64,000 nucleotides of DNA from Ulota crispa (lineage: Eukaryota > Streptophyta > Bryopsida > Orthotrichales > Orthotrichaceae), in assembly GCA_963920765.1 (NCBI GenBank), contig OY987248.1, forward strand, positions 4,498,539-4,562,538, read 5' to 3'. A program made the position numbers and the translations under genes. This document shows, one piece after another, positions 3,100 through 63,815 of this stretch; the stretch's first letter is position 1, and every line of letters starts with the position of its first letter. Under the pieces are notes generated by a model, which did not search any database, was not told the DNA's origin, and saw nothing but the letters and a program-made list of their open reading frames with translations.

Positions 3100-4044
3100 A
3101 TGCCTAAGGGACCGTTGTCCCCTCCGGGACAAATGGAATTTCAGGCATGTATCTATGCCTAAACTAATTTGTGTGATTTTTTGAAATTTTTATTGAAGGT
3201 GAGATATTCCAATATCTATGTGAACATTTAATTTTTTTCTTCTTTTCAACATTTACTGAAGAAATTATGCATGAATTTCTGAAAAAATAGGGAGGGTGCG
3301 CAATCCGGGCAACCCAAAAAACTTTTTTAAAATTTTCATTTTTTAAAAATAAAATTCTAGAATTGGTTCTTTAGATTTTTATACATGTGGGAAGTCATTT
3401 GAATCATTCAATTTTGATTGATGAGTGAGAAATTTTAGTTTGCAGTTTAGGTACTTGACTCCCAAACCTCCATTCCTTTTGTCCCTTGTACAATTTGGTG
3501 CTTTACTTTTTTGAGCTCTTTGTGTATTTGTTATTTGACTTCTTTTTTTCCAAGTTGTAGTAGACTAAGATTCCTTGGTTTTCACCATTTGGATCAAAGT
3601 AATTCACATTTCTCAATATTACATAAATCCTCCAACTTTGCCTAGTGTATATGTAAATTTCATGGCCTTACGGCATTGCAAGATTTTACAAAGTATAATC
3701 CACACCTCCAATTTGTTTGAAATTTCTCCCACACTTATGTAGCTTGGTCTTCTACACAAAAAAAAAAACCTTGACTTTGGGTAGAGCAATTTTTTGATAT
3801 AGGAGAGGTCAAAGGCTTCTGAAATTTTTGGGCAATAGGGAATTTTTTTTTCATTTCACATGTCAATATCTCACTCCTCTCCATCTAGAATGAGTTGATT
3901 CTTTTCCCACAAGTACCTCCCAAAGTCTTGGGAAGGATCCTATGGTTTGATTTTCAAAAAAAAAATTGTACCTTACTATTCATTGCCCTAAAAGTGGCAT
4001 TTTATAGTGACTTTTTGCAAAAAAAGGGCTCATTTCTTTAGGGG
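3100..4044. mobile_element. TTAA-type non-autonomous element, subfamily 1a (left end decayed)
   Basis: The right end reads TTCTTTAGGGG followed by TTAA at 4045-4048. The left end has drifted to GCCTAAGGGACCGTTGTCCCC and lost its TTAA. The interior is shared with the copies at 8415-10475 and 41689-42620, for example the stretch TTCATGGCCTTACGGCATTG at about 3660. This copy has no insertion there and so serves as the unoccupied reference for the 8983-9683 insertion. It has no coding capacity. Confidence 0.75.
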
Positions 4045-4048
4045 TTAA

Positions 4049-4843
4049 AAGGGCCCATTAAACTCAAAACAAGTGCTTAGGTGCTTGATTGATTGCATCC
4101 TTGAGACAAGTGTGCGGGAAGATTTTGAGATTCTTTGACAAAAATCTAACATTTCTCATTTTCAATCGGCTTTTTAGTGCATGCAATGAGTAATGCATAT
4201 GCGCTCACAATATAGTTAAATAAAACCAAGAAATTTAGTCGTTTTCTAACCAGTTGATTTAGAATTCAATCAATTTTGCTCACACTTCATTCAGCTGATC
4301 TTCTATTGTTATTCCGGATTTTCCATACATTGCTTGGGACCAGGGCATTTTTTTCCGACAAATCTGTTTTTGCCAGATTCAAAAAGAGCGTACGCGATTG
4401 GGGAATAAATGTAGGGAACAACTTTCATTAGTTGTCTTTGTTGCCAATTGGCTATTTTTTGTCCAAAAAAATGCGTTGCTTGGGACCATGTGCGCTGAAG
4501 TTCTCATTCAAATGGCAAGCATTTTGATGGCCTCATCTCTAAATGTAAATCTACCTTTACATTATGCTGGGGGAATGCTAAATTGTGAGCAGGGATCCGT
4601 GAGCCGTGAGCGTAATTTATTTGTTAAAATATTAAATTTCACCTATAAATGTGTACATAGGACCTTATAATTGCACATTATAAACATTCATATCTTGAAA
4701 ATTTGTTGTTTTTTAAGTTTTTCCACTAATTTTGAGCTCAAAATTGATTCCCGCTCATCAAATCTTGTCTCACCGCTCATGTAGGCTCACCATTCTACGC
4801 TCACAAAATAGCTTACCTCTCTTGTGTAACAGTAGATATACTT
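4049..4843. other. AT-rich spacer, no gene seen
   Basis: A 90-codon open frame (4398-4670, + strand) is the longest. It has no recognisable domain and biased, repeat-like composition, so I do not call it a gene. Confidence 0.5.
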
Positions 4844-5435
4844 CACTAAATATTGCATTTAGGTTGTCCCACACTAATTTCTTGACATCTCAAACTACAT
4901 ATACTTACTAATACTAAAATATTTTTCATCACTAGCTAATACAAAAAAACAAAATTTTAAGAGCGTGACAACAATAATAGCAATACAGAAAAGCAAACTA
5001 TCCGCGTTTTAGCTATAAACCATATGAAATCCTAGGATCTAGAGAGTTTTATGCGCCTCCAAGTGGCCTAGCAATGAGTTATGAGCAAAGATGTTCTTTG
5101 TATTTGTCAATGTAGAGCGACCCACACCCCATTATGCAAGCAAGTAAGGAAAAATGAGCTAAAATTGGAAAGTATGAATTATGTGTGTACGTTTATCCAA
5201 TTTTTTTACTAATATAAGCCACTTTCATCCAAAATTTGACAAATCACGTGTCTGCCCGAGTAGGGGTTTGGCATTTTTAAACCACTTTTTCACCTATTTT
5301 TAGTGTAATGATCACCAGGGATATTTTGAGATAAGATTTAGACCAAAAAAAATGCCTAGAAAAGAACCATGGTGAGATAACTTGCTAGGGTAAAGCAACC
5401 TAATTGTCAAGGCAACATAAATGCAATATTTAGTG
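4844..5435. mobile_element. TIR element, CACTAAATATTGCATTTAGG family
   Basis: The ends are CACTAAATATTGCATTTAGG and its inverse ...AAATGCAATATTTAGTG. Related copies lie at 14773-15442, 20615-21639, 39341-39642 and 53941-54257. Three of the five are flanked by TA on both sides, suggesting a 2-bp TA duplication, although this copy has lost it on the left. Compared with the 302-bp copy at 39341, it carries about 280 extra bases around 5090-5375. It is non-coding. Confidence 0.75.
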
Positions 5436-5459
5436 TAGATCAATAGAGCAGAGGGTCTA

Positions 5460-5784
5460 AGGTAGGAGGCTCATATTTTGCTCAAGCTCAAAATCGGTCC
5501 ACCTTCTCAAATGTATCTCATGTGTACATGCTTTTTTTCATAGGTTTCAAAAATATGCAAGCAATGTACATTTGAGAAGGTGAACCTTTATAGAGCCCTA
5601 TGGCCTTTTCACTTCAAAATTTTATAACTAACTCCACAAAACTCCAAAAAATATGAAACAACTTGGGTTAAACATCAATTCTTCTTGTCTTTCAAGAAAA
5701 ATTTACTGAAAAATAGTTCAAGAAGTTTCACCTCCCAAAATTCAGTTTCAGCCCTTAGATGGTCCATTCATGAGCCTCCTACCT
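5460..5784. mobile_element. TA-flanked MITE, AGGTAGGAGG ends
   Basis: The inverted ends are AGGTAGGAGGCTCAT and ATGAGCCTCCTACCT, with TA outside each. The interior, read on the other strand, matches the larger element at 60890-61697; both share stretches on either side of a GAAACTTCTT/AAGAAGTTTC motif. The TA duplication is that of Tc1/mariner-type MITEs. No coding capacity. Confidence 0.75.
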
Positions 5785-7706: not shown

Positions 7707-7940
7707 CCGTTAAAGGACAAAGCTACTAAAATACATACTATGTATGTTGTTGTATAACTAGCATTTGTTACCAACAAAAAGTTTTAATTTGCAATCTTAA
7801 CTACCTCACTAGAACAACATTGATCAATAATTTAACTTCTTTGTTAATCTCAAATGTAATAAAGGTGTAGATGCACTCCAAATACAAGAAAAATACCCCA
7901 TATTGTATTGGTCAAAAAGAGCTGCCTTGTCCTTTAAGGG
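7707..7940. mobile_element. TTAA-type MITE, 234-bp family, copy 2 (inverted)
   Basis: It lies in the opposite orientation to the neighbour at 7282-7515, 191 bp away. The left boundary is TTAA (7703-7706) plus CCGTTAAAGGAC. The right is GTCCTTTAAGGG followed by TTGA, a one-base decay of TTAA. It has the same length as copy 1. Confidence 0.85.
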
Positions 7941-8982
7941 TTGATAGAGTCTCACAAGAGAATTTTCTTCACTCAAATTACATACACTATATACCTTTAA
8001 TAAAACTCTCAACAACGCATTTCCAATAGCATGTTACTTCTTCCATTTGGAGCAAAACTACTATTGTTAGTACCTTAATTACATGTCAAATAATTGTGGT
8101 GACCTTTTCCTTTCCAAATTTAGTAATTCTCATAATCAACCAAAACTTTTGAAAACTATGCTTCCTCCTTTGAGCAAGCAAGGTTGACCAATTCTTCATT
8201 TGCAAAGAAGCCACACTTCGGTCTTAATCCACTATTTGTCATTTGTGAACTTTGTCAAAATTATTCTCAAATGGCAACTTGCCCAAATAATACTAAATTT
8301 AGAAATTTGCAACTCGTATTTGAATCCAAAGACCGTGAATTAGTTGAGTACATGAAAAGAGACGGAATAGCTCAACTCAAAATCTAATATATTTGTATTT
8401 TTGTGTAGACTTAACTCCTAAAGGCCCATCTGTCCCCTTGGGGGACAAATGGATTTTGGGCATGTACGTATAACTAAACTAGTTTGTGTGATTTTTTAAA
8501 ATTTTTATTGAAGGTGCGGACTTTCAAAATTTACGCAGGCATCTTTTCTTTTTTTCATTCCAACATTTATTGAAGAAGTTATGCATGAATTCTTGAAAAA
8601 TTGGGGAGGATGAGCAATCTAAGAAGCCCAAAAAACTTCTTTAAAATTTTCATTTTTTAAATATAAATTTCTGGAATTGGTTCTCTAGATTTTTATACAT
8701 GTGGGAAGTTTTGAATCATTCAATTTTGATTGATGAATGAGAAGTTTTAACTTGCGGTCTATGTATTGGAGTCCTAAACCTCCATTCCTTTTGCCCCTTG
8801 TACAATTTGGTGCTTTACTTTTTTGAGCTCCTTGTGTATTTGCTTTTTGACTTCTTTTTCTCCAAGTTGTAGCAAAATAAGATTCCCTTGTTTTCACCAT
8901 TTGGATTATAGTAATTTACATTTCTGAATTTTACATAAATCCTCCAATTTTGCCTAGTGTATATGCAAATTTCATGGCCTTA

Positions 8983-9683
8983 TGTAGCCCTATTAATTTC
9001 ATTTTTTGTTTATATCTTTACTTGCCAAAAACATGGGTTGTAGGTTGATTTTTTTGCAACCCACCTTGAATTTTATGAGTGGGCAAGTTGCAATACTTTC
9101 TTGTTTAGTTTAGTATTTTGTTTGTAAACTTTTTTTTGTCTAATAATTTCTAGCTACATGCATGGCTGCTTATTAGGTTATAAATGGGAACTTTTAAGAT
9201 AACTTCATATATTCTTCAGTTATGTGAATTAGTGATGTCTAACATCAATCTTCAATAGTTGTTTTATTTTGTTTGTTGTAATGCTAAACTTGGACATTTG
9301 CAAAGTGTACACTAACAATTTTGTCAAGAAGCAGCTAAAAGACTTTTTAGTACATTTGTACAAGCGCCAAACCTTGCCATGACACAATAACTATAAGCAG
9401 TCGTCTCAGGGAGGGCATGTAAATATAAAGCGCATTTACACTTTGCATTATAGCTAGGTGGGGGGAAATCAAATATGATTGATGGCTACTCAAGTTGTCT
9501 TAATATGAGGTCCCATCCGCGACAAGGTAGCATGTCAAATTGTACCTCACCTCAAAGAGCAGTTTTGCATCTTGAGACTTTGGCTACTTTTTGAATTTTT
9601 CTCTTTGTTTTAACAAAATAATTTTAGCACAACCAAATTTGAGATAGAGATTTTGCAAAATTTAGCTAGATTTATTACCATTA
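8983..9683 (-). mobile_element. 701-bp insertion with 6-bp target duplication, no inverted repeats (copy 1)
   Basis: The subfamily 1a host reads ...CATGGCCTTACGGCATTGC at 3660 and 42220. Here that site is split, with GCCTTA repeated on both sides (8977-8982, 9684-9689). The insert begins TGTAGCCCTATTAA and ends TTATTACCATTA. A reverse-complement copy of 703 bp lies at 20911-21613, flanked by GGGCAA on both sides. There are no terminal inverted repeats and no long frame. A solo LTR is possible, since 6-bp duplications occur, but the TG...CA ends are not kept. Confidence 0.85.
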
Positions 9684-9950
9684 GCCTTACAACATTGCAA
9701 GATTTTACTAAGTATGATTCACACATCCAGTTCATTGAAAATTCTGCCACATTTACCTAGCTTGGTCTTCTACATGGAAAAAGTAACCTCACTTTGTGTT
9801 GAGCAATTTTTTGATATAGAAGAGGTCAAAGGCTTTTGAAATTTTTGGGTAGCAAGGAAAAGTTACTTTTTTTTGCACTTTAGATGTCAATATCTCACTC
9901 CTCTACATTTAGAACGAGCTGATCTTTTTTCCCACATGTACCTCCCATAA

Positions 9951-10349
9951 GGTGGAAGCACCCATAGCTGATAATACCCCATTCCCAACTAGTAGGGGGT
10001 GCTATTTCCACCATGAGCAAGGATAGGTGCTTTGGAATGTGTATTTCTTACTTTTTCAAAGTTGGAGCCACTTAAGTCATGCCACATGTCCCAAAGTGAG
10101 GTAGGAAATAATTAACTAAAATTAGTTTGGTTAGTATTGGAATTGCATATATCTAGACGTTGGCAATGGGTGTGGAACACTTTTTGACTCCCAAAGTTCA
10201 TAGTAATTTTAGTTTTGCAAATAAAATTATGAAAAACTTGCAATCCCAATATTTCTTATCTTCCTACATGGGAAAAATATTTTTTGCCTCAAACTCTTTG
10301 TATTTTTCTGCAAAATTGCTTAAGTTATTGGTTATGGGTGCTTCCACCT
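9951..10349. mobile_element. TA-flanked MITE nested in the TTAA element
   Basis: The inverted ends are AGGTGGAAGCACCCATAGC and GGTTATGGGTGCTTCCACCT, with TA on both sides. The host sequence CCTCCCATA...GTTTAGAATAGG is continuous in the sister copies (for example CCTCCCATAGTCTAGG at 42490). The ends resemble the AGGTAGCNGCACCCATAAGC family found at 22986, 29029 and 36913. A 65-codon frame inside is not supported as a gene. Confidence 0.75.
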
Positions 10350-10674
10350 TAGTTTAGAATAGGATTCTATGGTTGGATTCCCTAAGAAACTTTTTTCCCT
10401 ACCTTTCTACTCATTCCCTCAAAAGTGACAGTTTGCAATGACTTTCACACAAAAAAGGGCTTGGGCCTTTAGGGGTTAAGTGGGGCTATCTTATATACAA
10501 AATTTGTTTGTTCAATTTTATCCTATCTCCACTATTCTTCAAAGAAAAAAATTACTATTACTTATACATATATAGTATACACCATGAAACCAATAATAAG
10601 CATATAAATTAGGGAGTGACTAAGTGAACACCCCCCAATTGCTACATGGACACCCCCATAGCCAAATCTATTAA

Positions 10675-26112: not shown

Positions 26113-26743
26113 CCCCTCACCGCCCAAAGGGCCCAAATCGGGCCTCTCTGAAAAATTTAGAGGTATCGGACTTTTTTTTAAGATTTTTTTTGTGATTATT
26201 ATTATTTTTAAATTCTTATTGAAATCTAAGTTCAACATTAGGAGTTTGATCTTGAAAATGAATTAAAGTGATTTGTCTATTCAAGATTTTGTGTAAAGGT
26301 GTCCATTGCAAATCTTCACTTTCTAGTATTGAAGGATCTTGGAAACAAGCCTCAAGTACACTAGAACTTGGAGACAAAACCACATTAAAAATTCAATTAA
26401 AAAAATTTTGAGACGCCGTTAATTGATTGGGGTTGTGCATGTTATACTTTACATACTCATATTTTTTTGGTACCCTCAATTTTAGGTTTGAGATACAAAA
26501 AGAGGATTGAAAGACTTCAAATCACTTTTGCGGTTTTAGCACCCTCACGATCAAACATTATAATCTTTCAATCCATAAGTGATATTGTTGTGATTTCTTT
26601 TCCTATGTGACGAATAACATGTTTGTTTTGAATTTGTATGGTTGCGCTTGAGAGAAAATTGATGAGATTGATAAAAAAGCCGACATTTTGTTCACTTTCA
26701 AGCAAATTCTGAGATACTCAAAATCACCATGGGCGGTGAGGGG
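26113..26743. mobile_element. TTAA-type element, CCCCTCACCGCCC family (copy 1)
   Basis: TTAA (26109-26112) precedes CCCCTCACCGCCCAAAGG and TTAA (26744-26747) follows CCATGGGCGGTGAGGGG. It is near-identical over most of its length to 38027-38644 (618 bp), which suggests fairly recent movement. The interior is unrelated to the CCCCTAAAGG families. Non-coding. Confidence 0.9.
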
Positions 26744-26817: not shown

Positions 26818-28562
26818 CCCCTAAAGGACCGTTGTCCCTACGAGGGACAAATGGAAATTTGGGCAGGTACCTACGGCCTCAATTTTTGTCTTCCTTTTTT
26901 GAAACTTTTTTTGAAGATAGAAAAACACATTAGCTTTTGGGGAATATGAATTTATTCCAAATGATGCTAGGGAGCAAAAGTTATGCCCAAATAAACACAA
27001 ATTTGGGGAATTTGGGCAGCAATTTTTTCACAAAAAACTTGAAATATTTTTAAATTTGTTTTTCTCATAGATTGTATCTTTGTCTACTACATCTAAGGCT
27101 TTGATTCATTCCATTTGGACTAGTTATGAGAAAGTTATGGACAATCTTGTTTTTTGGGCAATTCAAGCATCTTCTTGAATTTTTTTTTATAAACTTCATT
27201 TTTGAATGCAAGTTTAACATTTTTTCAAAAGAAATTGTTGGAGAGGCTGAAGTTTGCTATCTAGAACAATCTTACAGTTGGAATTATTGCGTTTCAATTC
27301 CATTGCTTGGTTATTGACAATTTAAGTGTTTGTTCAATTTCATACCTTCTTCTAACTAATGTCTTTTTTTAAGAATGAAAATCAAGTTTCTTTTTTTTTG
27401 AATTTTTTTCCAAGATTCCCAACTCAACTTCCCACCAAAAAAAAAAAAAGTTCCAAACTCTAGGGTGCAAAAAAATTAAGTTAGAGAAGTTCAAAGTCAC
27501 CTAATCTAGTCATGCAAGGTCTCGGGGGGGGGGGGGGGTCACACCTCTTTACAATTAGATACCACCTGCGATAATAGGGTAATTAAATGGGGGGTATTTA
27601 TATTTTTAAGGTAAAATTTTCCTCCCTTCCATTAGATAAAAAGCTACTTTAGTACATTTTAAGGTAACCAATGCTTATTTCTAAATGGTTATATGACCTA
27701 ATTTTTCAAACCCTATTTTTTTTACAAACACAAAAGTATCATAAGAAAAAAATATGTGCATACAATGGGTTTATAAAAGGCTTTGGCCCTTACAAGCATT
27801 TGACTTACAAAAAAACACATTTGAAAGAAAAAACGCAGCAAACAACTTGAAGCTAAAGCAAACAACCAATCAGTCGTATGCCACACACAATCTTATGCAG
27901 ACAACCAATTACACTCCCCTACCACACATAAGCTTAAGCAAAGAACCTATCTCAAGTCTCAACTCCAAATCACACACAAGCTTGCATGCTCCTACCCATC
28001 TGTCTAAATAATTTTGAACAAATTTCCCTCCATTATTTTCAAAACTTGGATAGAATGTACTTAATTTTTCATTCAAACTTGTCAAGTAATAATAATCAAA
28101 CTCATCCTACTAAACACTTTCTAGAAGATCCTATATTTCCTACCCTACTTTTTTCTACTGAATTCTAAAATGAAGGCATTATTCACCACCCTATTTTACA
28201 TATAATGAAGTAAGAGACATATTTTTGATGCTATGGTATTTCTAACAAAAATATAAAATTTACCTCCAATGAATAAAATTGACCCTATTTTTTTATCTCA
28301 TGTAGTTCACTAAAAATTGGAGAGTAACCCCCCAAGTGCAAGGTGCAAAAAACCTTGTTTTTTACACTTTGAATGCAAATCTCTTCCAATTTTTGCGGTC
28401 TAAATTCTTGAGTTTTGCATGACACATTCTCATACTACTCTAGTACAAGATCCTACGATCAAATATGCAATAAGACCAATTTTCAAACTTTTTTACTCTT
28501 TGTCATAAAAGTGGCAGTTTTGAGTGTCTTTTGACAAGATAAAGGCCATGGTCCTTTAGGGG
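26818..28562. mobile_element. TTAA-type element, subfamily 1b, carrying an 816-bp insertion
   Basis: TTAA (26814-26817) precedes CCCCTAAAGGACCGTTGTCCC and TTAA (28563-28566) follows GGTCCTTTAGGGG. The body aligns with 49493-50418 (926 bp). The excess is the 27521-28336 insertion; without it and its duplication this copy is about 920 bp. Confidence 0.9.
27521..28336. mobile_element. 816-bp insertion with 8-bp duplication and a 15-G end
   Basis: TGCAAGGT occurs at 27513-27520 and 28337-28344. The sister copy at about 50195 keeps the uninterrupted ATGCAAGGTGCAAAAA. The ends (CTC, then 15 G, then TCAC... and ...GTAACCCCCCAAG) are weak inverted repeats. An 8-bp duplication suggests a hAT-like element. 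Its 85-, 60- and 63-codon frames have no recognised domain. Confidence 0.8.
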
Positions 28563-33921: not shown

Positions 33922-35084
33922 CCCGTGAGCGCGGAGAGTTATTTTAAGATTTAGGAGAAAATGTGGGGTTTAATGGCCACCATAGCTTGGAAAATTACAT
34001 TTAGAAAAATTGATCGCAAGATTTGAAAAAAAACTACCATCTTTGCTGATGGGGACCAACAATGATTGTTTTCACCGTACAAGTTAACCCTTAAAGGACC
34101 AAGCTTGTTTTTTGAGAAAAGATCCTAGAAATTGTTAATTTTTAGTGCATTGCCCAAAATAAAAAATAAAAATCTTTTTTCTCAATTTCAATCGTACAAA
34201 AGTTTATAAAACCAATAATCCAACGTGTGCAAAAAAATTCAGCCCATTTGACTGCATGGTTTGTAAGATTATAACGTTTGAAGTGAGAAAAACAACTTTT
34301 TTTTATTCTTGCAAAACAAGGTCAACAGACTTTGAACCTTCATAGAGTAAAATTTTTGGTCAACACAAATTTGAGCTTTTTGGCCATTCACAAGTGTATG
34401 ATGTTAGGTTCACTCATGAAAATTTTCAAATGCAAATATAGAGTTTAGCTTATTCTAAATCACCCTCCAATGCAAGGAGGTTTAGTGAATTGGCAATACA
34501 CTAGTCATTCTTTCATGATTTCTTGTGCAATGTGGAAGTCTTTTATTTGAAATTTGAATGGTGAAAAGTTGGAGAAAAACATTTGGAATATGTGAAAAGA
34601 AGTTTCAAGTGCTTTGGGTTTATAGATAATAGGGCTTGAAGTTGGAGGATTTTTTTTTTCTTGAAACGGCCTGAACATAGTTAACAAAGTTTGACTCCCG
34701 AGCTCAAGTTCTTTTTTTTTTTGACAATTGTATATTATGTTTTTTTAGTAACATACTTGCCAAATTTCAAAAGTTGACGAAAGTTTTAGCATAAGATTCT
34801 CCAAAGATGCTCAAACTGCCCGAATTGCCCAATTTCTTTTGGGCAACATAACTTTTGAACTGGACATCCAATTGGGGAAAAAATTAGATCTCCACTTGAG
34901 GAATACATATTTGCACCTTGTGTATCAATTTTGAGAACATCCAATAAAAATTAACTCCTTTACAACCTTACCCGAGTTCTTGAGTGGCTGTTGAACAGCC
35001 AGTTGATCCTTTGGGGGTTAAGAGAAAAAATGAGATACACTTTGTGGGCCCATCACAGTATAATGGCGACTGGGCGCTCAGGGG
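33922..35084. mobile_element. TTAA-type element split by a second TTAA-type element
   Basis: TTAA (33918-33921) precedes CCCGTGAGCGC and TTAA (35085-35088) follows GGGCGCTCAGGGG. Its body matches the uninterrupted 228-bp copy at 60918-61145: GGGGTTTAAT, CCACCA, GGAAAATTAC and TTTTCACCGTACAA appear in the same order. The insertion at 34088-35017 falls just after CACCGTACAAG. Confidence 0.85.
34088..35017. mobile_element. TTAA-type element nested in another TTAA-type element
   Basis: TTAA (34084-34087) precedes CCCTTAAAGGACCAAGC and TTAA (35018-35021) follows TTGATCCTTTGGGGG. It is 930 bp, the typical length of subfamilies 1a-1c, but the interior is only distantly like them. Non-coding. Confidence 0.8.
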
Positions 35085-35939: not shown

Positions 35940-36649
35940 CCCCTAAAGGACCAAGCCCAATTTTGGGGGACAAATGGGATTTTGGGCATATACCTATGGT
36001 TAAACTACTTTGCGTGATTTTTTGAAAATTTTATGGATGATGGGGAATTTAAAGACTTGCGTAGGCATCTAATTTTTTCTTCATTTTGACGTTTATTGAA
36101 GAAGTTAAAAATGAATTTCCAAAAATGGGCAAGATTGGGCAGTCCAAAAATTTCTTTAAAAATTGCATTTAAAAAAAATAAACATATGCAATAGGTTCTT
36201 TTGACTTATATGTACATAGGGAGCTTTGAATCATTCAATTTTCATTAATGAGATGAAAGTTATGAGAAATTTTTGTTTGCATGTAGATGTGATTTCTCTC
36301 AAAACCACACCTACCTGCAAATGAAAACTTCTCATAACTTTCATCTCATCAATCAAACTTGAATGATTCAAAGCTCCCTATGTATATATAAGTCAAAAGA
36401 ACCTATTGCATATTTTTATTTTTTTAAATGCAATTTTTAAATAAGTTTTTGGACTGCTCAGTCTCGCTTTTTTTTGGAAATTCATTTTTTATTTTTTCAA
36501 TAAATGTCAGAATGAAGAAAAAATCTGATGCCCACTTAAATTTTTGAATTCCACACCTTCAAAAAAAATTTCAAAAAATCACATATATTAATTGTAGATA
36601 TATGCCCGAAATCCATTTGTCTCCGAGGGGACAGTTGGTCCTTTAGGGG
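35940..36649. mobile_element. TTAA-type foldback element, near-complete palindrome
   Basis: TTAA (35936-35939) precedes CCCCTAAAGGACC and TTAA (36650-36653) follows GGTCCTTTAGGGG. The two halves, about 340 bp each, are inverted copies meeting at about 36290. Paired landmarks are GGGACAAATGGGATTT/AATCCATTTGTC and CTCATAACTTTCATCTCAT in both orientations. The arms match the left portion of subfamily 1a elements, so this is a derived inverted-duplication form. Confidence 0.9.
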
Positions 36650-38026: not shown

Positions 38027-38644
38027 CCCCTCACCGCCCAAACTGGGCCCCAATGTGCAACTTTTTTTCAAGTTTTTTTTAGTGATTCTTGTTATTTTTA
38101 AATTCTTATTGAAGCCTATTTTTAGCATCAAGAGTCTGATTTTGAAGATGAATTAAAGTGATATGTCTACTCAAGATTTTGTGCAAGGGTGTCCATTGCA
38201 AATCTTCACTTTCTAGTATTGAAGGTTCTTGGAAATGAGCCTCAAGTACACTAGAACTTGGAGAAAAAACCACATTAAAAATTCAATTAAAAAAATTGTA
38301 GAATAGATTTTGAGACGCCTTTAATTGATTGGGGTTATGTATGTTATACTTTACATACTCATATTTTTTTCATACCCTTGATTTTAGGTTTGAGATGCAA
38401 AAAAAGGATTGAAAAACTTCAAATCACTTTTGCAATTTTAACACCCTCATGATCAAACATTATAATCTTTCAATCCATAAGTGATATTGTTGTGATTTCT
38501 TTTCCTATGTGACGAATAACATGTTTGTTTTGAATTTGTATGGTTGCGCTTGAGAGAAAATTGATAAGATTGATAAAAAAGCCAGCATTTTGTTCACTTT
38601 CAAGCAAATTCTGAGATACTCAAAATCACCATGGGCGGTGAGGG
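38027..38644. mobile_element. TTAA-type element, CCCCTCACCGCCC family (copy 2)
   Basis: TTAA (38023-38026) and TTAA (38645-38648) bound it. It is near-identical to 26113-26743 apart from small indels near the left end and at about 38300. Confidence 0.9.
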
Positions 38645-38651
38645 GTTAATG

Positions 38652-41688: not shown

Positions 41689-42620
41689 CCCCTAAAGGAC
41701 TAATTGTCCCCTCGGGAGACAAATGGACCTCAGGCATGTACCTTTGACTAAATTAATTTTTATAATCTTTTGAAATTTTTGAGGTTGGTGGCGAATTCGA
41801 AGATGTGTGTGCACATCTAATTTTTTCTTCATTTTGACAATTATTGAAGAAGTTATGCATGAATTTCTAAGTAACGAGGGAGGGCGGGCAATCTGAGCAG
41901 TCCAAAAAACTTCTTTAAAAATTGCATTTAAAAAATAATAATTTGAAATTGATTCTTTAAGTTTTTATATATGTGGAAAGCTTTGAATCATTCAAGTTTG
42001 ATTGATCAGTGAGAAGTTTTAGTTTGCGGGCAGGTATGGAACTCCCAAACCTCCATTCCTTTTGCCCCTTGTTTAATTTGGTGCTTTAATTTGTTTTTTG
42101 ACTTATTTTTTTTCCAAGTTGTAGTAAACTAAGATTCCTTGGTTTTCACCATTTGGATCAAAATAACTAATATTTCTCAATTTTACATAAATCCTCCAAT
42201 CTTGCCCAGTGTATATGCAAATTTCATGGCCTTACGGCATTGCAAGATTTTAAAAAGCATGATCCACGCCTCCAATTTATTCAAAAATTCTCCCACACAT
42301 ACCTAACTTGGTCTTCAACATGGAAAAAATAAACTTCAACTTTGTGTAAAGCAAATTTTTTGATATTGGAGCAATCAAAGGCTTCTGAAATGTTTGGGCA
42401 ACAGGGGAAGAAAACTTTTTTTTGCACTTTGGATGTCAATATCTCACTTCTCTACCTCTAGAATGAGCTGATTTTTTTTCCACAAGTACCTCCCATAGTC
42501 TAGGACAAGATCCTATGGATGAATTTTCAAAAAAACATTTTTCCTACCTTTGTACTCATTCTCCCAAAAGTTACTGTTTTCAATGATTTTCACAGAAAAA
42601 TGGACTTGGTCCTGTAGGGG
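41689..42620. mobile_element. TTAA-type element, subfamily 1a, uninterrupted, 932 bp
   Basis: TTAA (41685-41688) precedes CCCCTAAAGGACTAATTGTC and TTAA (42621-42624) follows GGTCCTGTAGGGG. It is the cleanest 1a copy, with TTCATGGCCTTACGGCATTG and CCTCCCATAGTCTAGG both uninterrupted. It is inserted in the host that ends at 42936. Confidence 0.9.
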
Positions 42621-45724: not shown

Positions 45725-45866
45725 TTAAGCCACAAGGTAACATTGTCAACTTGAAATGTTTTTGTCAATTTGAACACATTTAGTCAATTTATATGTGTCA
45801 CTAAGGACAATTTTTCAAGGCTAATATTAGCTTTCAGGGCTCAGGCATCTAGAGAAAATCTATTAA

Positions 45867-46780
45867 CCCCTAAAGGACCAAGCAAAGTTTTCACCAAAAA
45901 CTCTTCAAAATTGCCATTTTTAGAGCATCAATCAAATTTGAAAACAAAAACATTTTTATGCATATGTGACCATAGGATCTTGTAGAAGAATGGTTTTAGA
46001 AGATGTGGAAAAAATCTCAGAGTTTTCCACCTTGTGGATTGGAAGTTAGAATGGTTTGAATATTCAAAAATGTCTTGTGAAAAATTCGGGCAGCTACCCT
46101 TCAGAAGGTGAAATTCCTAAGGAAAAAAGGCCATGTGGGTGGTGCTTCTCTAAATTCCTTATTCCACCTAAGTAAAGTACTTGTCAAAAAAGTTTCAAAT
46201 CATTTGGAATTGTATAACATATGATAAAAAATTAGTAAGTAAAAAGAAGTAGAGAATGATTCAAAATACTAAATTGTTAAGAATTTTACTATGGAAATGA
46301 AAAATACCAATCCCAACGGTTATAATGTTGTAATAAACAATTCACATCTTTTAGTTTTGTTTTTTTTCCAAAATGTTGAAAATTGAGTAAAATAAAGGAC
46401 TTCAAAGTTTATTTTGGAGTAGAGAATCCATAACTGCTCGTAAACAAAAAATCCTCATAACTTTCATCTCGTTGATCCAAATGGAATGGTTCAAAGCTTC
46501 CTACATTCACATGAATCTCCTAAACCCATTTAAAAAATTTGTTTTTGAAAAAGTAAATTTTAGAAATCTGCCCAAGCTGCCCGCCAAACGTAAAAAGCAA
46601 CATATTAGGCCATAGCTTTTTACTCATAACTCCAAATGTCATGAAATTTATTGCATATGAAAGATAAACCTTGTCCCCACATTTTCTAAAAATTTCAGCC
46701 TAAAATATGAGAAGCTCCAATCACAGGTACTTGCCCAAAATTGCTATGTTTCTAAAAAAGGGAGTCTAGTCCTTCAGGGG
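45867..46780 (+). mobile_element. TTAA-type element, subfamily 1c, 914 bp
   Basis: TTAA (45863-45866) precedes CCCCTAAAGGACCAAGC and TTAA (46781-46784) follows TAGTCCTTCAGGGG. It closely matches 59742-60659 and the inverse of 43070-43981. Confidence 0.9.
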
Positions 46781-46903
46781 TTAAGCTTATGACTGGCAAA
46801 GCTGGGGTTTCACCCTTGGGGTTTGATTTTTACCCAAACCTCCCCTTTTGGTTTGCTCCTTGGCCAATACTCAAGAGCAGCGGTCCCAAATGATATTTCT
46901 TAA

Positions 46904-47882
46904 CCCCTCATTGCCTAAGGGGACAATTTCAGTCCTCTAGCAATCCATCTTTGCTACTGGAATTGCTGTGACTTTTGCGCTGATTGTCCAAATTTAGTAG
47001 AATTTGTTGGCAAAGTTGCGCATACTAGTCTAGTTTCTATGGATAAATTTCCAGATCCATCTAATTCATATTGAGTTTTTGAAAGCCATTCAAAGTTTAC
47101 AGGGTCAATTTGAGTTCACCACATTGCATTGTGATGGCTACAACTTTGGAGGCTTGTATCTTTTTCATCATATGTTCGTTTTCAATAAAGTTTGTTGGGT
47201 TTTGTTCCCTTAAATTCCAATAATTGTGGTAATATTTTCACTTCAATCCAAGTTTTCTTGAATGTTTGGGAGCAAATCAAAGTTCAAAATCCACACATTT
47301 TTGCATTGTAGTGAACTTTGGGAGCTTATAACTTCTTTATATGAACTTTTTTTTCAATCTTTGTTATCAAAAAAGTTGCGCATACTAGTCTAGCTATTGT
47401 GGTTAAAATTTCATATCAATCCAAGTAGCTATGAGTGAATGAGAAGCATTTTAGTAGAGGGAGGTTTAGCCATAGATGTGATTTTTGCTACTTTTTTCAT
47501 TGTTTTTTGACATTTCAAAACTATTTTGCACACAAAATGAGTATATTGATTGATGTTTTCTTTCACCAATGTGTTTGTATATTGGTTTGAATCACTTTAC
47601 ATTTTAATTTTTTTCATTTGAGTAGGTTCAAAAATGAAACTTCACCTCCAAATGTATTTTTAGGAAAATTTCAGCATCATTTATTAGCACTAAAACATTA
47701 TAATCTTCCAATCTATGTGGTCAAATGACCTCAAATTTGATTCACGTCATATATAACATGCACACTACAAGATTGTACTGTTGAGATTTTCATACTCCAC
47801 GAGATTTTCATACTCCACTAACATTGAGACTTACAACACTTGAAAAATGCTCTAAACCCTCTTGGGCCTAGGCGATGAGGGG
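46904..47882 (+). mobile_element. TTAA-type element, CCCCTCATTGCC family (copy 1), 979 bp
   Basis: TTAA (46900-46903) precedes CCCCTCATTGCCTAAGGGG. The right end CCTAGGCGATGAGGGG is followed by TTCA, one base from TTAA. Over about 47130-47780 it is nearly identical to 57070-57740, so both copies are young or have been homogenised. Confidence 0.9.
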
Positions 47883-50946: not shown

Positions 50947-52021
50947 GGGAAATTTTGAAAACTATCCTTGTAATTTGCTATATTTTGTACATTACCTTTG
51001 CAATTATAAAAATTCCAAAAATAGCCTTAAAAGAGTTTTGCACTACTACAGTGCAATTGTATTGTAGCTAGTAAAAAGTACATGACCACTTGGGCACTTA
51101 TCTATGCATGATACAAAGTAAACCTAAATATCTCTCTTCAATTCATCACCACACAAGTTCAGCGCTAAATTGTAAACATAATAGCTTAATTCCTAAAGCC
51201 ATGAACAACGTGTTTTGGTAACACAAAAAATTTGGGCAGCTCACTATAAATGGATTTTTCATTTTTTTCTTCTTTGAAATTTTCACATATGACGTGTACA
51301 AGGTTTAGCTTTAAGGTCCAACAATTTTCATAACTTTTGAATTCATGGTTCATTTTAATCCATGAGATGAAAGGTATTAGGAGTTTTAGTTTGCAAGTAT
51401 ATATGGATTCTCTCAAAATCATACCTACTTGCAAACTAAAACTCTTCATGACTTTTGTCTAATTAATTAGAATTAAATGATTCAAAGCTCCCCATGTATA
51501 TATAAATATAAGACCTAGTTTCAAAAAAATTGAAAATTTATAATTTTAAAGAAGTTTTTTGAGTTGTTTGGGTTGCCCATCAAGCAAAGAAAACTACATG
51601 ACTTGCTATAATTTTTGAACCATGAAGTCAAAAGTTATGAAAATTGATGAGCCTTAAAGCTGCTCCTTGGACACATCATGTGTGAAAATTTCAAAGAAAA
51701 AAAAAAAGAAAAACCCATTTGTTATGAGTTACCCAAAATTGCTATGTTGCCAAAAAATGTTGCTCAGGGCTTTAAGGGTTAATAAACTTGCATATTTGCA
51801 TATTCATTTTCACAACTATAACATTTATTTTTGATGAAAAAAGTGTTAACTTTGCAAAATTGGGCGTGGAAGCATTGCCTTGAGCGAGCATGTGGCTTAA
51901 TGTATCATTGCAATGTAAGTTCTTTATAAAGCCATGACAAGGGTATTTTTTCAATTTTGAAAATTACAAAAGTGATTATCAAAAATACAGCAAATCATAG
52001 GGATATTTTCCAAATTTTCCC
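50947..52021. mobile_element. Mutator-like MITE host (GGGAAATTTTG ends) with a nested TTAA foldback
   Basis: The ends GGGAAATTTTGAAAACTATCC and ...GGATATTTTCCAAATTTTCCC are inverted. The flanking 9-mers TAAATTCAA and TATATTTAT agree at six of nine positions, a probable aged 9-bp duplication. Removing 51190-51778 and its duplication leaves about 480 bp. Confidence 0.65.
51190..51778. mobile_element. TTAA-type foldback element, 589 bp
   Basis: TTAA (51186-51189) and TTAA (51779-51782) bound it, with ends TTCCTAAAGCC and GGGCTTTAAGGG. The halves are inverted copies meeting near 51410, where TTTAGTTTGCAAGTA and TACTTGCAAACTAAA face each other. This is the same architecture as 35940-36649, built from a different subfamily. 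Confidence 0.85.
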
Positions 52022-56762: not shown

Positions 56763-57869
56763 AACGCCATATTCATTAAATTGGGAAAACTAGATTCCCA
56801 AGTTGTACTCTCACCTTACAACTAGAGCTTGGTTTAAGGTGGTCACTGTAACCCCTCATTGCCTAAGGAGACAATTTCTGTCCTCCAACAAACCGTCTTT
56901 GCAACTTGAAGTGCTAAATTTTTTTTGTTGATTGTCCAAATCTAGTAAAACTTGTTGGCAAAATTGTGCATACTAATATAATCTTTGTGATAGAATTTTC
57001 AGATCAATCTAAGACATATTGAGTTTGTGAAAATCATTCAAAGATCACAAGGTCAATTTGAGTTCACCACATTGCATTGTGATGGCTACAACTTTGGAGG
57101 CTTGTATCTTTTTCATCATATGTTCGTTTTCAATAAAATTTGTTGGGTTTTGTTCCCTTAAATTCCAATAATTGTGGTAAGATCTTCACTTCAATCCAAG
57201 TTTTCTTGAATGTTTGGGAGCAAATCAAAGTTCAAAATCCACACATTTTTGCATTGTAGTGAACTTTGGTGGCTTATAACTTCTTTACATGAACTTTTTT
57301 TTCAATCTTTGTTATCAAAAAAGTTGCGCATACTAGTCTAGCTATTGTGGTTAAAATTTCATATCAATCCAAGTAGTTATGAGTGAATGAGAAGCATTTT
57401 AGTAGAGGGAGGTTTAGCCATAGATGTGATTTTTGCTACTTTTTTCATTGTTTTTTGACATTTCAAAACTATTTCGCACACAAAATGAGTATATTGATTG
57501 ATGTTTTCTTTCACCAATGTGTTTGTATATTGGTTTGAATCACTTTACATTTTAATTTTTTTCATTTGAGTAGGTTCAAAAATGAAACTTCACCTCCAAA
57601 TGTATTTTTAGGAAAATTTCAGCATCATTTATTAGCACTAAAACATTATAATCTTCCAATCTATGTGGTCAAATGACCTCAAATTTGATCCACGTCATAT
57701 ATAACATGCACACTACAAGATTGTACGGTTGAGATTTTCATACTCCACTAACATTGAGACTTACAACACTTGAAAAGCAAGGGTGCCCTAAACCCTTGTT
57801 AGGCCTTAGGCGATGAGGGGTTAAACTCCCAAAATCAAGGTTTCTTCCCAAAGTAACAAATATAGTGTT
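56763..57869. mobile_element. AACACCATATT-family MITE split by a TTAA-type element
   Basis: AACT at 56759-56762 and 57870-57873. The ends are AACGCCATATTCATTAAATT and ...ACAAATATAGTGTT. The family's central palindrome (GGTTTAAGGTGGTCAC...) is broken at its own TTAA by 56852-57820. Confidence 0.8.
56852..57820 (+). mobile_element. TTAA-type element, CCCCTCATTGCC family (copy 2), 969 bp
   Basis: The left flank is GTAA (one base from TTAA, 56848-56851) and the right flank TTAA (57821-57824). The ends are CCCCTCATTGCCTAAGGAG and CCTTAGGCGATGAGGGG. It is near-identical to 46904-47882 over its central 600 bp. Confidence 0.9.
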
Positions 57870-57993
57870 AACTTGTTTTACTAGAAAGTTTCTAGAATGT
57901 TTAGGGTGAAGTTTTTTGAGAAGGAATTATACATTTAGACTTTTAAATTTTATTCACAAATATTGGAGTTTTGGGAGTTTGGGTGTACATTAA

Positions 57994-59737
57994 CCCCTCA
58001 AATCCCAAGCCCATTTTTTTCACAAAAAACACTCAAAATTGCCATTTTCACTCATTTGATCCCAAGAGTAGTTTTTTTTCTTTTCTCAACAATTCTAATC
58101 ATAGAATACTACATCAAACACTTGTAATGAACCATGGCAAAAATTTCATGACATTTGACATTTTGACTATATAGATTGAGAGATATGAACATTTGAAGTA
58201 AAAGGAAGAATTTTATTTAACCTTTGCACAAATTTTTTTGACCTTTCTGAGTCTTGATTGCATGTTGTGAGCATTGTTTGCAAAGTGAATGTTGTAGAGA
58301 GTTGTTCAACATGCTCTAAATTGTGTTAAGCATATTTCCACAAATTTTCAAGGCTAATAGAGAAACGAAACTCACCCTACATGCCCATGCATTGCAAACA
58401 GGTGCTTGAAATTCTCATTACATTGGGGATTTAGGGAAAATTTGAACCCTCCAAGAGCCCCCTAGTGTTTGACAAACCAAGCTATTATTTGGCTAGCATG
58501 AGTACAAGAAAAGGGCACTTATACCTATTGCTACCTTGTATGAAGGACCTTAGCCACATGCATATTTTAAAACAATAAAAAAGGCATTGCACTCATAAAA
58601 AAAGTAAATGTACTCACTAGTCATTATCCAAGTACTTCACTCATCTATTCTAGTAGAGTAAAATAGAATTTATGGTCATATCGTACATTTGTTCCCATTG
58701 TTTTTGTCTAATTGGAATAACATACTAATGTAGTTTTCATGATTGCATTGAGTTCAAAGGGTGAGCAAAAAGAGGGGATTAGTAATTTGTTTGTTGTAGT
58801 AAGTACATACCCTAAGACCCTTTTAGAGACTTTGGAGGGGACCTTTGGAGGGCTTGATTTTTTCCTAAACTTTTTTGCAAACCAAATTTATGAGGGCCAT
58901 TTTCAAATTTTAGAAATCCAAATGGTAAATTGAGAGACTTTACCTTTATTGACGAAAACAATTTTATTTTTGAAAAAAACCAAGTCACTACTATAGGTTG
59001 TTAGCAGATTTGGCATAAAACAATTCCCCAAGATTTTGCCTAACTATTCTATAAATTATTCTCCAAAAATGCCCAATGTCAAACAAATCAAAATTTGAAA
59101 TGCCAAATATCATAAAGGTCATTAAGCTTAACTAACAATGAAAGGTCAAGGTTGAGTCTAAGAGGGCTCAATCTACTACAAATTTTTTACCAAGGGCTAA
59201 TTTTAGAAAGTGGAAGATGCTTAGGAAAAGGTTTAATTCTACTATTTTTTTGATTGAATGCCAAATAATAACAACTTTTTTTAAAAGTGCCTAATCTTGT
59301 TTAATTATACGATTTGATGCCAAATTGAGTTTCTCTAGAAAAATAATTAATTTGGCATGGAACAGCCAAATCTGCTCCCCACCTACAGTAGTAGCTATTG
59401 CATTTCAAATGCTACTACATTTGTCATAATTTATGATGTGTTTATCAAGTACATTGTTGCTTTGGATGTACTCCAATGAAGGGTCATGCCTTTGTTGGTT
59501 GCCTTTGGGAGAAGTCAATGAAAATTGATTTGTCCAAATTGCCCCTTGAACAAAAAAAAAGCCATAAAACACTAATAACTTTTGAACAATAAATCCAATT
59601 TTTAAAAAAATTATACATTGCATAGCCCTTGCAATACACTATTTTAGATGAAAAATTCAAAAAAATTGATCAAAAATCCCAACAAAATAAGCATGCCCAA
59701 AATCCATTCCCTCATAGGAACAATGGGCTTTTAGGGG
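57994..59737. mobile_element. TTAA-type element carrying a nested TIR element
   Basis: TTAA (57990-57993) precedes CCCCTCAAATCCCAAGC and TTAA (59738-59741) follows CAATGGGCTTTTAGGGG. The last 300 bases match the host remnant at 42625-42936. A 400-bp TIR element sits at 58990-59389. The two ends differ more than in other copies, so a composite is possible. Confidence 0.6.
58990..59389. mobile_element. TIR element with ACTATAGGTTG...GCAGATTTGG ends (copy 2)
   Basis: The ends ACTATAGGTTGTTAGCAGAT and ATCTGCTCCCCACCTACAGT pair. The interior matches 22344-22743, apart from short indels. Confidence 0.75.
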
Positions 59738-59741
59738 TTAA

Positions 59742-60659
59742 CCCCTAAAGGATCAAGCAGCATTTTCACTAAAAATGCTGCAAAATTGCCATTTTTAGAG
59801 CATCAACCAAATTTGAGCAAAACATTTCTATGCACATGTATTTGTAGGATCTTGTAATAGGATAGTTTTAGAAGATTTGGACAAAATTTTAGAATTTTCC
59901 ATTGCATGGATTGGAAGATAGTATGGTTTGAGTATTTGGATACTTCTTGTCAAAAACCAAGCAACTACCCTTCATAAGGTGAAGTTCATGAGGAAAAAAG
60001 GTAGTGTGGGTGGTTCTTCTCTAGGTTAATTTTTCCACCTAAGTAGGGTACATGTCAAAAAAGTTTCGAATCATTTGGAATTATACAACATATGGGATAA
60101 AAATAGTAAGTGAAAAGAAGTAGAGAATGCGTCATAACACTAAATTGTTAAGAATTTAGTTATGGAAATGAAAAATGCAAATCCCAACCGTTGTAATGTT
60201 GTAATAAACAATCTACTTCCTTTGGTTCATTTTTTTTTCCAAAATATTGAAAATTGAGTAAAATAAAGGACTTCAAAGTTTATTTTGGAATAAAGAATCC
60301 ATAGCTGCCTACAAACAAAAACTCCTCATAACTTTCATTTCATTGATCAAAACAAAATCATGATTCAAAGCTTTCTACATTCGCATATTTCTCCTTAACC
60401 AATTTCAAAATTTTATTTATGAAAATAGTGATTTTTAAAAATTTGCCCAAGCTGCCCGCAAATGGGAAAAACAACATATTAGGCCATATCTTCTTATTTA
60501 TACTTCCAAATGTCATGAAATCTAATGCATATGAAAGGTAAACCTCATTCCCACATTCTATCATAATTTTAGTCTAAAATATGTAAATCTCCAATCACAA
60601 GTACTTGCCCAAAATTGTTAATATGTTGCTCAAAAAAGGGGACTTGGTCCTTTAGGGGG
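59742..60659 (+). mobile_element. TTAA-type element, subfamily 1c, abutting its neighbour at one TTAA
   Basis: It starts CCCCTAAAGGATCAAGC directly after the TTAA that also ends the 57994-59737 element, and finishes GGTCCTTTAGGGGG before TTAA (60660-60663). It is 918 bp, against 912 and 914 bp for its two sister copies. Confidence 0.9.
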
Positions 60660-60663
60660 TTAA

Positions 60664-60889: not shown

Positions 60890-61697
60890 AGTAGGAGGTT
60901 CTCAAACTGAGCGTTAACCTCTGAGTGCCTGGAGTTGTGTTAGGATTTAGGAAAAAATGGGGTTTAATAGCCACCACAGTTTGGAAAATTACTTTCAGAA
61001 AAAGTGATTGTAGGATTTGAAAAAGGATTACCTTTTTTGCTAATGCGGACCAGCCACATCTGTTTTCACCGTACAAATCAAGAGAAAAAGTGAGATCAAG
61101 CTGTGATCCCCAACGACAGGATCCAGTTGCTAGGGTGCTTAAGGGTTAAGGACTCAAATTGAATTTTGTGGAGGTGAAACTTCTTAGAATATTTTTTAGT
61201 AAATTTTCCTTGAAAGACAAGTGGAAGTGGCATCTAACCCAAGATGTTTCTTAGTTTATGGAGCTTTGTGGAATTGGTTATGAAATTTTGAATTGGAAAG
61301 GCCATAGGTCTCTAAAGTGGTGCATCTCCTCAAATGTACCCCAACCTACAACTGAACTTTGTTCACTCTACAATTAACCAGCGTCACATTAAGTATTCCA
61401 ATTCCTCTAATTATTGCAAGCAGTTGCCCATACCATGCAAAAAAAATTGACCTTAGGAGAGTTTATACATTTATGGTGACCAGGTAAAGATATTAACTTA
61501 TACACAAAAGTCAATTGTAGGTTCCATGTTGCATTATCGTAAAATGAACAAAGTTAAGTTGTAGTTTGCAATACATTACTTGTACAATGTTGAAGGGCTA
61601 TGAAAAATAACATGTACAAATTGAATACTTTTGAAAAGGTACACCATTTTAGAACATGCACATTTTTAGAACATGCACCATTTTAGAACCTCCTACC
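60890..61697. mobile_element. AGGAGGTTCTC-ended element, host of a short TTAA-type element
   Basis: GTAGGAGGTTCTCAAA and TTTTAGAACCTCCTAC are inverted. The interior, read in reverse, matches 5460-5784 (AAACTTCTT..., GGAGCTTTGTGGA, GGCCATAGG). The TA flanks are decayed here. Confidence 0.65.
60918..61145. mobile_element. TTAA-type MITE, 228 bp, uninterrupted relative of 33922-35084
   Basis: TTAA (60914-60917) precedes CTCTGAGTGCCTGG and TTAA (61146-61149) follows GGGTGCTTAAGGG. CACCGTACAAATCAAGAG here marks the unoccupied form of the site filled at 34084 in the sister copy. Confidence 0.85.
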
Positions 61698-61901
61698 TCT
61701 TAAACTTATGTGCCTGTCTGTGCAGCCTAGCCCCAGCACACAAAAAAACTACAAAATCTGCACCAACCAGCTCTGGCTTTTGTTTAATTTAAGTGTAGCA
61801 AATTGCTCACACATTCCATACTCTGTACGACTCATGTCTGTCATGCATGTGCTCTTTTGTTGGACTCTCACTTCACGAAAAAACAATAAACACCATATTT
61901 A

Positions 61902-62267: not shown

Positions 62268-62270
62268 TTA

Positions 62271-63053
62271 TATGGAACGCAATTCGGACTTTAATTTTTA
62301 GTGAGCTATTGTAATTGATTAATCCGGCCTTCAAAACAAAATTAGTTCTGGCAGAGGATTGAGGGTTTCTTAGTGAATTCGAATTTCAGTGGCGGGTGAA
62401 TTTTTCAAGGGACAATCTTTGTTGATTATATCTCGCAAACACAATACCATCCAAAGTTTGCGATACGTGACATTTTTGCATCTCAATTCGATTAGTAAGT
62501 TTTTCAGGGGAGAAAAATCTCAATTTTGAAGGGAAAATAAAGTAAACATGTCGTCACTTGCACACTTTTGTTTATTGCACTAACTAAGTAGCCAATAGTT
62601 GTTAGAAATCTTTGTTGGTATTGTAAGAAGATTGATTTCCTTTCTGTGAATACATGTCCCACGTTACCATTGATTATAGAATTGCAAGAAACTTTCTTGT
62701 ATGAACAACTTTTACTCTTTATTCTTACTGTGATAAACACAATATTCACTAATTTGGAGAAAAAACTTGATTTTATGACTTTTAGATTTACGTTCTTGAT
62801 AAAGTACTCAATAATTACTCTTTTGAGAATATAAAAACTCAAATGTCCCAAAATTGGATTCTTCCCAAATTAATGAATATTGAGTTAATAACTATAAGTG
62901 GTGGGTAAGGGAAAGCACTTTCTTTTTAGTAAAATTTAACAAATCCATCTTTGAATGTATTGCAAAATGCAAACCACAAGACATACACATTTCTTGGCCT
63001 TTTTTTGGGTTTCCTTGAATTTTTTTAACTCAATCATTTAACATTTCAAATCA
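62271..63053. other. AT-rich spacer, no gene supported
   Basis: A 115-codon minus-strand frame (62504-62851) is the longest. It is rich in Ile, Phe, Lys and Ser, as AT-rich non-coding DNA translates, with no domain. Confidence 0.5.
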
Positions 63054-63057
63054 TTAA

Positions 63058-63290
63058 CCCTTAAACAACCAAGCAACCCTTTGCAACAAGTACAATACGG
63101 GTATTTTTTTTGTATTTGGAGTGCATCCACACTTTTACTACATTTGAGATTAACAAAAAAGTTAGAATATAGATCAATGGTGTTCTAGTGAGGTAATAAA
63201 GACCCCAAATTAAAACTTTTTGTTGGTAGCATATGCCAACTATACAACAATGTACATGCTATGTATTATAGTAGCTTGATTCTTTACGGG
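63058..63290. mobile_element. TTAA-type MITE, 234-bp family, copy 3 (233 bp)
   Basis: TTAA (63054-63057) precedes CCCTTAAACAACC and TTAA (63291-63294) follows TTCTTTACGGG. It aligns throughout with 7282-7515. Confidence 0.9.
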
Positions 63291-63306
63291 TTAAACACAT
63301 ATTTAA

Positions 63307-63815
63307 CCCTAGAGTGTCCCAGGGGTGATTATATTGCCTTTGGTTTTGAAAAATGTCCACGTTTGACTCTTATCCTCTTTTTAATGATACAGTCAAAGGA
63401 CTTGTACTTTTTCATGTACCTTCAAGTGTGTGTCTACTACCACTCAAAAAAAATTCAAGCTATTTGACTGTACCTAAGTAAACGCCATATTTGTTAATTT
63501 GGGAACTATGTTTGAATTTGGGACTTCTGAAGGTTTAAGGTGATCACCTTAAACCCATCTTTAGGTTTAAGCAACGTTTTTTTGGTACACGTGTCCTCAC
63601 CTAAGAGGAGGAATTTGCAAGAGAAGAAATCTTTGTGACTCAAACTGAATCTGACACCTTTGAATTTAATTTAAGATAACTTTTTGGATTTAAGATGAAG
63701 TTCAATTTGGGAATTGCATTTCCCAATATAATGAATTTTGATGTTGGTAATAGTTTTATTGGATTAAATACAAAAAGGTATGAATTTGAGTGAATATGGC
63801 CTGGGCGCCCAGGGG
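63307..63815. mobile_element. TTAA-type element containing an AACGCCATATT-family MITE
   Basis: TTAA (63303-63306) precedes CCCTAGAGTGTCCC and TTAA (63816-63819) follows CTGGGCGCCCAGGGG. Inside, 63481-63745 is a diverged copy of the 1871-2130 family, with the 24-bp palindrome at 63532-63555. Confidence 0.65.

Follow-up and report, generated by a model that had tools for sequence, protein, structure and literature searches.

TTAA-flanked elements in the window

The window analysed here, a 64-kb stretch of the moss Ulota crispa (contig OY987248.1; contig C7 of the 274.8 Mb in 157 contigs that made up the genome searched), is crowded with short elements that lie between copies of the tetranucleotide TTAA, carry terminal inverted repeats starting with CCC or CCY, and are almost certainly non-autonomous members of the piggyBac superfamily. 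Twenty-three such elements were delimited (Table 1), 18 with TTAA on both sides and five with one altered side reading TTTG, GACA, TTGA, TTCA or GTAA. Their union amounts to 18,424 bp, or 28.8% of the window, the foreign DNA nested in 8415-10475 and 26818-28562 included. The original prediction had counted about 25 paired copies occupying about a third of the window; the pairing and the large share stand, while the count is 23 and the share slightly lower. The constant lengths that it reported within families (912, 914 and 918 bp; 234, 234 and 233 bp) were reproduced exactly on re-measurement. Boundaries were drawn from an end scan, self-alignment and the printed ends; the elements at 590, 3101, 7707, 43070 and 51190 have a decayed or weak end, and for several elements the limits were set by visual inspection of alignments. 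Scanning the window for TTAA plus a 14-base end, with the reverse complement before another TTAA, yielded 39 pairs, a figure that includes chance pairs. Two pairs of neighbours (585/590 and 59737/59742) have a single TTAA in common, as expected if the TTAA from one insertion serves the next.

The position of TTAA directly outside CCC-type inverted ends, likewise claimed from the outset, goes beyond chance. CCC-type ends adjoin 46 of the 946 TTAA sites in the window, as against 0-8 of the 517-3186 sites of each of 17 control tetranucleotides; single ends were scored here against six end consensuses read off TTAA-adjacent ends, a procedure that favours TTAA somewhat. Pairs of TTAA-CC ends (100-3000 bp apart, with at most 3 mismatches in 14) number 14 in the window, whereas 60 first-order Markov simulations averaged 0.18 and never exceeded 2.

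Transposase genes and full-length copies

A profile search of the genome found matches to the piggyBac transposase domain DDE_Tnp_1_7 (PF13843) in at least 120 places, about 116 loci by manual count, with a best E value of 1.3e-73; the same domain was matched in none of 14 control genomes. Stops interrupt 110 of the 120 rows listed; some of these stops may reflect introns that were read through. Unlike this broken majority, C1:1180709-1181995 (+) matches PF13843 in two stretches (108 and 90 bits), is listed with a stop-free frame of 563 amino acids and is a candidate domesticated or intact piggyBac gene.

Twenty-five of the loci, comprising the 13 with the best scores and 12 picked from further down the ranking, were examined with wider flanks. 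By reading of the alignments, element ends were recognised on both sides of 11 transposases (L009, L018, L025, L027, L012, L014, L017, L032 and L033, with weaker ends in L010 and L013), on the 3' side of five (L011, L024, L031, L034 and L035) and on neither side of nine. Two pairs of loci settle the boundaries of full-length copies. L009 (1863-6890) and L018 (1897-6923) are alike over 5,029 bp at 90.5% identity, and L025 (2701-8008) and L027 (2695-7924) over 5.2-5.3 kb in two stretches of 89% and 93%; in both cases similarity breaks off no more than one base from the TTAA-type flanks and CCC ends (CCCCTCATYGCC and CCCCTTGAGG) of the end scan, the left flank of L018 reading TTCA. The ends of L009 and L018, CCCCTCATYGCC and CCCTTCATTGCC, recur in the window family at 46904 and 56852. 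Under uniform criteria TTAA brackets 13 of the 25 transposase loci, the mean over all 256 tetranucleotides being 0.47 and the next best 5.

The encoded proteins resemble piggyBac transposases in their catalytic motifs as well. A stop-free frame of 476 amino acids at L026 matches the T. ni piggyBac structure 6x67 at 4.1e-20, piggyBat 9c0f at 5.8e-17 and PF13843 with 203 bits, and two motifs with catalytic aspartates fall into register (VDEC on TIDEQ, TCDNYFT on TCDNWFT). In three-frame translations of 22 loci, excluding L033-L035, loose DE, DN and GVDxxDQ-type patterns, which we take to hold the three catalytic aspartates, were present in 15, 13 and 15 loci, the last figure including one poor match in L018. 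The search for a DDD transposase (DDE_Tnp_1_7) with the same ends, proposed as the decisive check, has thus turned up full-length copies; the dominant CCCCTAAAGG family of the window is tied to transposase loci by its 3' end and arm only.

The dominant family and its transposase link

The right part of the CCCCTAAAGG elements at 3101-4044, 8415-10475 and 41689-42620 is shared with sequence that follows the transposase on its downstream side in L024, L031, L034 and L035. Identity of these 3' arms to window 41689-42620 or 3101-4044 is 69% over 589 bp in L024, 74% over 558 bp in L031 and 77% over 515 bp in L035; L034 shows 73% over 315 bp at the end, plus shorter pieces. The homologous arms run up to a TTAACCCCTAAA[GA]G end, which reads TTAACCCCTAAAGGATT, TTAACCCCTAAAAGACC and TTAACCCCTAAAGGACC in L024, L031 and L035, and TTAACCCCTAAAGGATT again in L034. 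In L024, L031 and L035 the arm starts 1.12-1.18 kb beyond the transposase match, which suggests that it belongs colinearly to one element and is not a chance neighbour. The 0.93-kb elements may have arisen by deletion and carry a different left part, or may be relatives of autonomous copies outside the sample.

In L011, a candidate 5' end at position 1317 was discarded, being by our reading part of a separate 0.93-kb element. L034 contains at 1488-2408 a 0.92-kb element, 89% identical to window 45863-46784, which lies 3' of the transposase gene and before the common 3' arm; here a short element seems to have inserted into an autonomous relative.

Target site

Searching the fetched DNA for joined flanks revealed paralogous empty sites for four elements, one of them a transposase-bearing copy (Table 1); each holds one TTAA-equivalent, in one case reading TCAA. 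Five of nine junction alignments were retained for these four elements. Three were dropped as mis-paired, since they matched their own left flank (window 57990-59741, L025 2319-9310 and L025 2701-9310), and a fourth (L028 8562-9478) because it aligned poorly at the junction. The nested insertions at 8986-9682, 9949-10361 and 27521-28337 were also rejected as TTAA empty sites, since they seem to have duplicated about 6 bp, TA and 8 bp, respectively.

Genome-wide, the exact 14-base end CCCCTAAAGGACCA occurs 8,876 times (reversed control, 0), 7,555 of them directly after TTAA, and the end of a second family, CCCCTCACCGCCCA, 635 times (reversed control, 2), of which 570 follow TTAA. A set of 60 ends from several families in 262 kb, which includes chance matches, retains T at -4 in 53 cases and A at -1 in 55; position -5 in the same set reads T in 22, C in 17, G in 11 and A in 10.

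Proposed mechanism and rival explanations

These observations, among them the PF13843-bearing copies with ends of the same class, the strictness of TTAA, the single-TTAA empty sites and the 3' arm common to the dominant family and four transposase loci, leave us in very little doubt that the window elements belong to several piggyBac families as non-autonomous members, presumably mobilised by the DDD transposase of 5-6-kb relatives. Such a transposase, encoded elsewhere in the genome, would recognise the CCC-type inverted ends common to the families, excise the element and insert it at TTAA, the TTAA being duplicated in the process. The transposases of the 5-6-kb relatives have probably moved the short elements in this way, and most copies are presumably inactive now because most transposase genes are broken.

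Several points weigh against this assignment. The examined loci are 25 of about 116, in nine of which (L015, L016, L019-L023, L026 and L028) neither end was recognised; no transposase locus among the 25 has CCCCTAAAGGACC at both ends; and the 5' ends of L011, L024, L031, L034 and L035 were not recognised, comparison of short-element left arms with the DNA upstream of these five transposases giving nothing beyond weak or chance-like similarity (best 1.5e-4, 109 bp, 62%). The short CCCCTCACCG and CCCCTCATTGCC families show no internal homology to the L009, L014 and L018 elements and are linked to them by their ends only. Within the 13 loci bracketed by TTAA, the pairs at L009 and L010 combine ends that belong to adjacent elements, and chance seems to account for those at L023 and L026. 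Finally, the empty sites are paralogous and not allelic, that of L017 being just 73% alike to L009.

TA-duplicating elements of Tc1/mariner or Stowaway-like type, with A as their first base and a preference for TTAA sites, would produce the same empty-site appearance, and a foreign element flanked by TA does lie in the window at 9949-10361. Given that empty sites alone cannot tell TTAA from TA plus A, decayed flanks before CCCCTAAAGGACCA were counted genome-wide: of the 8,876 exact ends, 305 have lost the outer T (VTAA) and 257 the inner A (TTAB), whereas an A belonging to the element would entail far more loss of the outer T. The four bases therefore behave as one unit, and transposase-bearing copies of the same CCC/TTAA end class prove to be piggyBac; no search aimed at mariner transposases was made, but on this evidence we hold the TA-duplicating explanation to be very improbable.

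PIF/Harbinger (Tourist-like) elements with a TTA duplication are the usual assignment in plants, which had to be checked here as Harbinger genes are plentiful (150 DDE_Tnp_4 matches in the genome). A Harbinger-type transposase with the same ends, named in the original prediction as the counter-case, was seen in none of four loci sampled from the 150: TTAACCC/GGGTTAA is absent from all four (3.5 kb each, with 1.5-kb flanks), a small sample. The sole one with recognisable ends, L036, combines a TTA duplication with C[AG]GTGTTTTCACAC, its ends reading CAGTGTTTTCACAC and CGGTGTTTTCACAC. The flanks in the window are TTAA on both sides with outer and inner bases kept alike, and not a 3-bp TTA or TAA, so that a Harbinger origin seems a shade more improbable still than TA duplication; both were left standing by the original prediction and are now disfavoured. 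Kolobok and Sola3 elements also use TTAA as target, yet the transposase within full-length copies of the same end class is PF13843, and we give these superfamilies, at whose transposases no search was aimed, as slight a chance as Harbinger.

Relation to known systems and significance

In their TTAA target, CCC-starting ends and PF13843 protein with aligned catalytic motifs, these piggyBac elements agree with the T. ni and piggyBat members of the superfamily; they differ in their moss host, in the 5-6-kb length of the transposase copies (about 2.5 kb in T. ni piggyBac), in the several end types and in the thousands of short derivatives. Insect piggyBac-type miniature inverted-repeat transposable elements (MITEs) are similarly short, transposase-less, flanked by TTAA and constant in length within a family, but belong to another host lineage. 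The Tourist MITEs derived from plant PIF/Harbinger have an AT-rich target and abundant short derivatives in common with the window elements, but a TTA duplication and other ends, CCC ends being absent from the four Harbinger loci sampled here. The elements are thus of a known kind, and what is unexpected is the host, a land plant and moss, and the scale.

Animals are the hosts from which the piggyBac superfamily is best known; it is rarely reported from land plants, where short repeats flanked by TTA or TTAA are, in our view, easily filed as Tourist/Harbinger MITEs. A review from 2022 on the elements of land plants lists, in its available portion, six terminal inverted repeat superfamilies, the word piggyBac being absent from that portion (PMC9033089), whereas the introduction of another review counts PiggyBac among plant superfamilies (PMC10794571). 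Traces appear in the repeat tables of C-fern (1,230 copies; PMC6890710) and Stellaria (60 copies; PMC13180808), as far as the excerpts of these papers extend. Among the open-access matches listed, none described, in the parts available, an expansion of piggyBac in a moss or such amplification in land plants; a paper on the moss Niphotrichum was set aside, both occurrences of "piggybac" in its accessible text being "piggybacking".

More than 100 transposase matches and thousands of derivative ends show that the piggyBac superfamily can succeed in a land plant. We put it at even chances that piggyBac and its short derivatives are among the main DNA-transposon loads of this genome, with tens of thousands of TTAA elements in several coexisting families making up perhaps a tenth of it, spread by a radiation of divergent transposases. 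Copy number and genome share are extrapolations: the 22 outer elements per 64 kb were scaled to the genome and divided by about 2.3, the factor by which the density of exact CCCCTAAAGGACCA ends after TTAA in the window (4 per 64 kb) exceeds that in the genome (7,555 per 274.8 Mb). The end sequences are usable for re-annotating other bryophyte genomes, and vertical descent as opposed to horizontal arrival becomes testable across mosses.

Plastid genes

Intact psaA and psaB frames are present on contig C157. Compared with solved structures, PsaB scores best against 8htu, 6l35 and 7ksq/7kux (1714-1710 bits), ahead of 9lut (1676) and 7wfd (1632), and PsaA ranks them alike. By this measure the plastid genes stand closest to those of mosses. 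We take 8htu and 7ksq to be from Physcomitrella patens and 7wfd from an angiosperm. The available part of the paper behind 6L35 deals with photosystem I of the moss Physcomitrella patens (PMC7884438). Of the 48 psaA/psaB-family matches, 46, mostly short pieces, lie outside the plastid contig, as plastid DNA insertions would.

Other features of the window

Table 1. TTAA-flanked elements of the window and paralogous empty sites
Position	Strand	Feature	Flanks and remarks
590..819		230-bp element, 234-bp family	left TTAA 586-589 common with element ending at 585; right flank altered
3101..4044	+	0.93-kb CCCCTAAAGG family	left flank GACA (altered), right TTAA; 3' arm common with transposase loci L024, L031, L034, L035
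7282..7515		234-bp family	TTAA both sides
7707..7940		234-bp family, inverted copy	right flank TTGA (altered)
8415..10475	+	0.93-kb family with two nested foreign insertions (~8986-9682, ~9949-10361)	TTAA both sides
26113..26743		0.63-kb CCCCTCACCGCCC family	TTAA both sides; 635 exact ends genome-wide
26818..28562		CCCCTAAAGG element with nested ~0.8-kb insertion (8-bp duplication TGCAAGGT)	
33922..35084		CCCCTGAGCGCCC-type element	hosts nested element 34088-35017
34088..35017		930-bp CCCTTAAAGG element nested in 33922-35084	empty site in relative 60918-61145
35940..36649		710-bp CCCCTAAAGGACC element, partly fold-back	TTAA both sides
38027..38645		0.63-kb CCCCTCACCGCCC family	TTAA both sides
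41689..42620	+	932-bp CCCCTAAAGG element	right 515-589 bp homologous to 3' arms of L024, L031, L035
43070..43981	-	912-bp member of 914-bp family	inverted relative to 45867-46780
45867..46780	+	914-bp family	TTAA both sides
46904..47882	+	979-bp CCCCTCATTGCC family	right flank TTCA (altered); end type as in transposase-bearing L009/L018
49493..50418		926-bp relative of 26818-28562	TTAA both sides
51190..51778		589-bp fold-back element, weak ends TTCCTAAAGCC / CCCTTAAAGCC	TTAA both sides
56852..57820	+	969-bp CCCCTCATTGCC family	left flank GTAA (altered); 92% to 46904-47882
57994..59737		1744-bp element	right TTAA common with element 59742-60659
59742..60659	+	918-bp member of 914-bp family	right end with one extra C
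60918..61145		228-bp relative of 33922-35084 without nested insertion	empty site near 61076
63058..63290		233-bp member of 234-bp family	TTAA both sides
63307..63815		509-bp element, ends CCCTAGAGTG / CCCCTGGGCG	TTAA both sides
window 34084-35021		empty site: window 60998-61096	occupied GTACAAG-TTAA-GAG; empty GTACAAATCAAGAG
L009 8902-9554		empty sites: window 22499-22670 and 59144-59308	
L017 514-1452		empty site: L009 8501-8617	73% alike only
L025 2701-8008		empty site: L022 418-285	transposase-bearing copy

Other insertions are nested in the TTAA elements. The copies of a repeat of about 698 bp at 8986-9682 and 20912-21609 (inverted) are 97.6% identical, more than the TTAA elements are among themselves; the first lies inside element 8415-10475, its flanks suggesting a duplication of about 6 bp (GCCTTA), and has no obvious inverted ends. 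The TA-flanked element at 9949-10361 (ends AGGTGGAAGCACCCATA), nested in the same host, has its empty site in the relatives at 3101 and 41689, and an 82% copy of it is found at L015 1403-1807. The insertion at 27521-28337, about 0.8 kb long and with G/C-run ends, is hAT-like by the length of its 8-bp duplication only.

One of the seven window reading frames scanned has a Pfam match, that of a 2-oxoglutarate/Fe(II) oxygenase at 31558-32544 (+; DIOX_N 4.5e-22, 2OG-FeII_Oxy 2.3e-21), whose G+C content is 63%, compared with 34% for the window. Scans of the window for tandem repeats, tRNAs and Rfam families returned nothing bearing on the TTAA elements. An array of about 129 copies of the 8-base unit ATAAAATA occupies 11364-12401.

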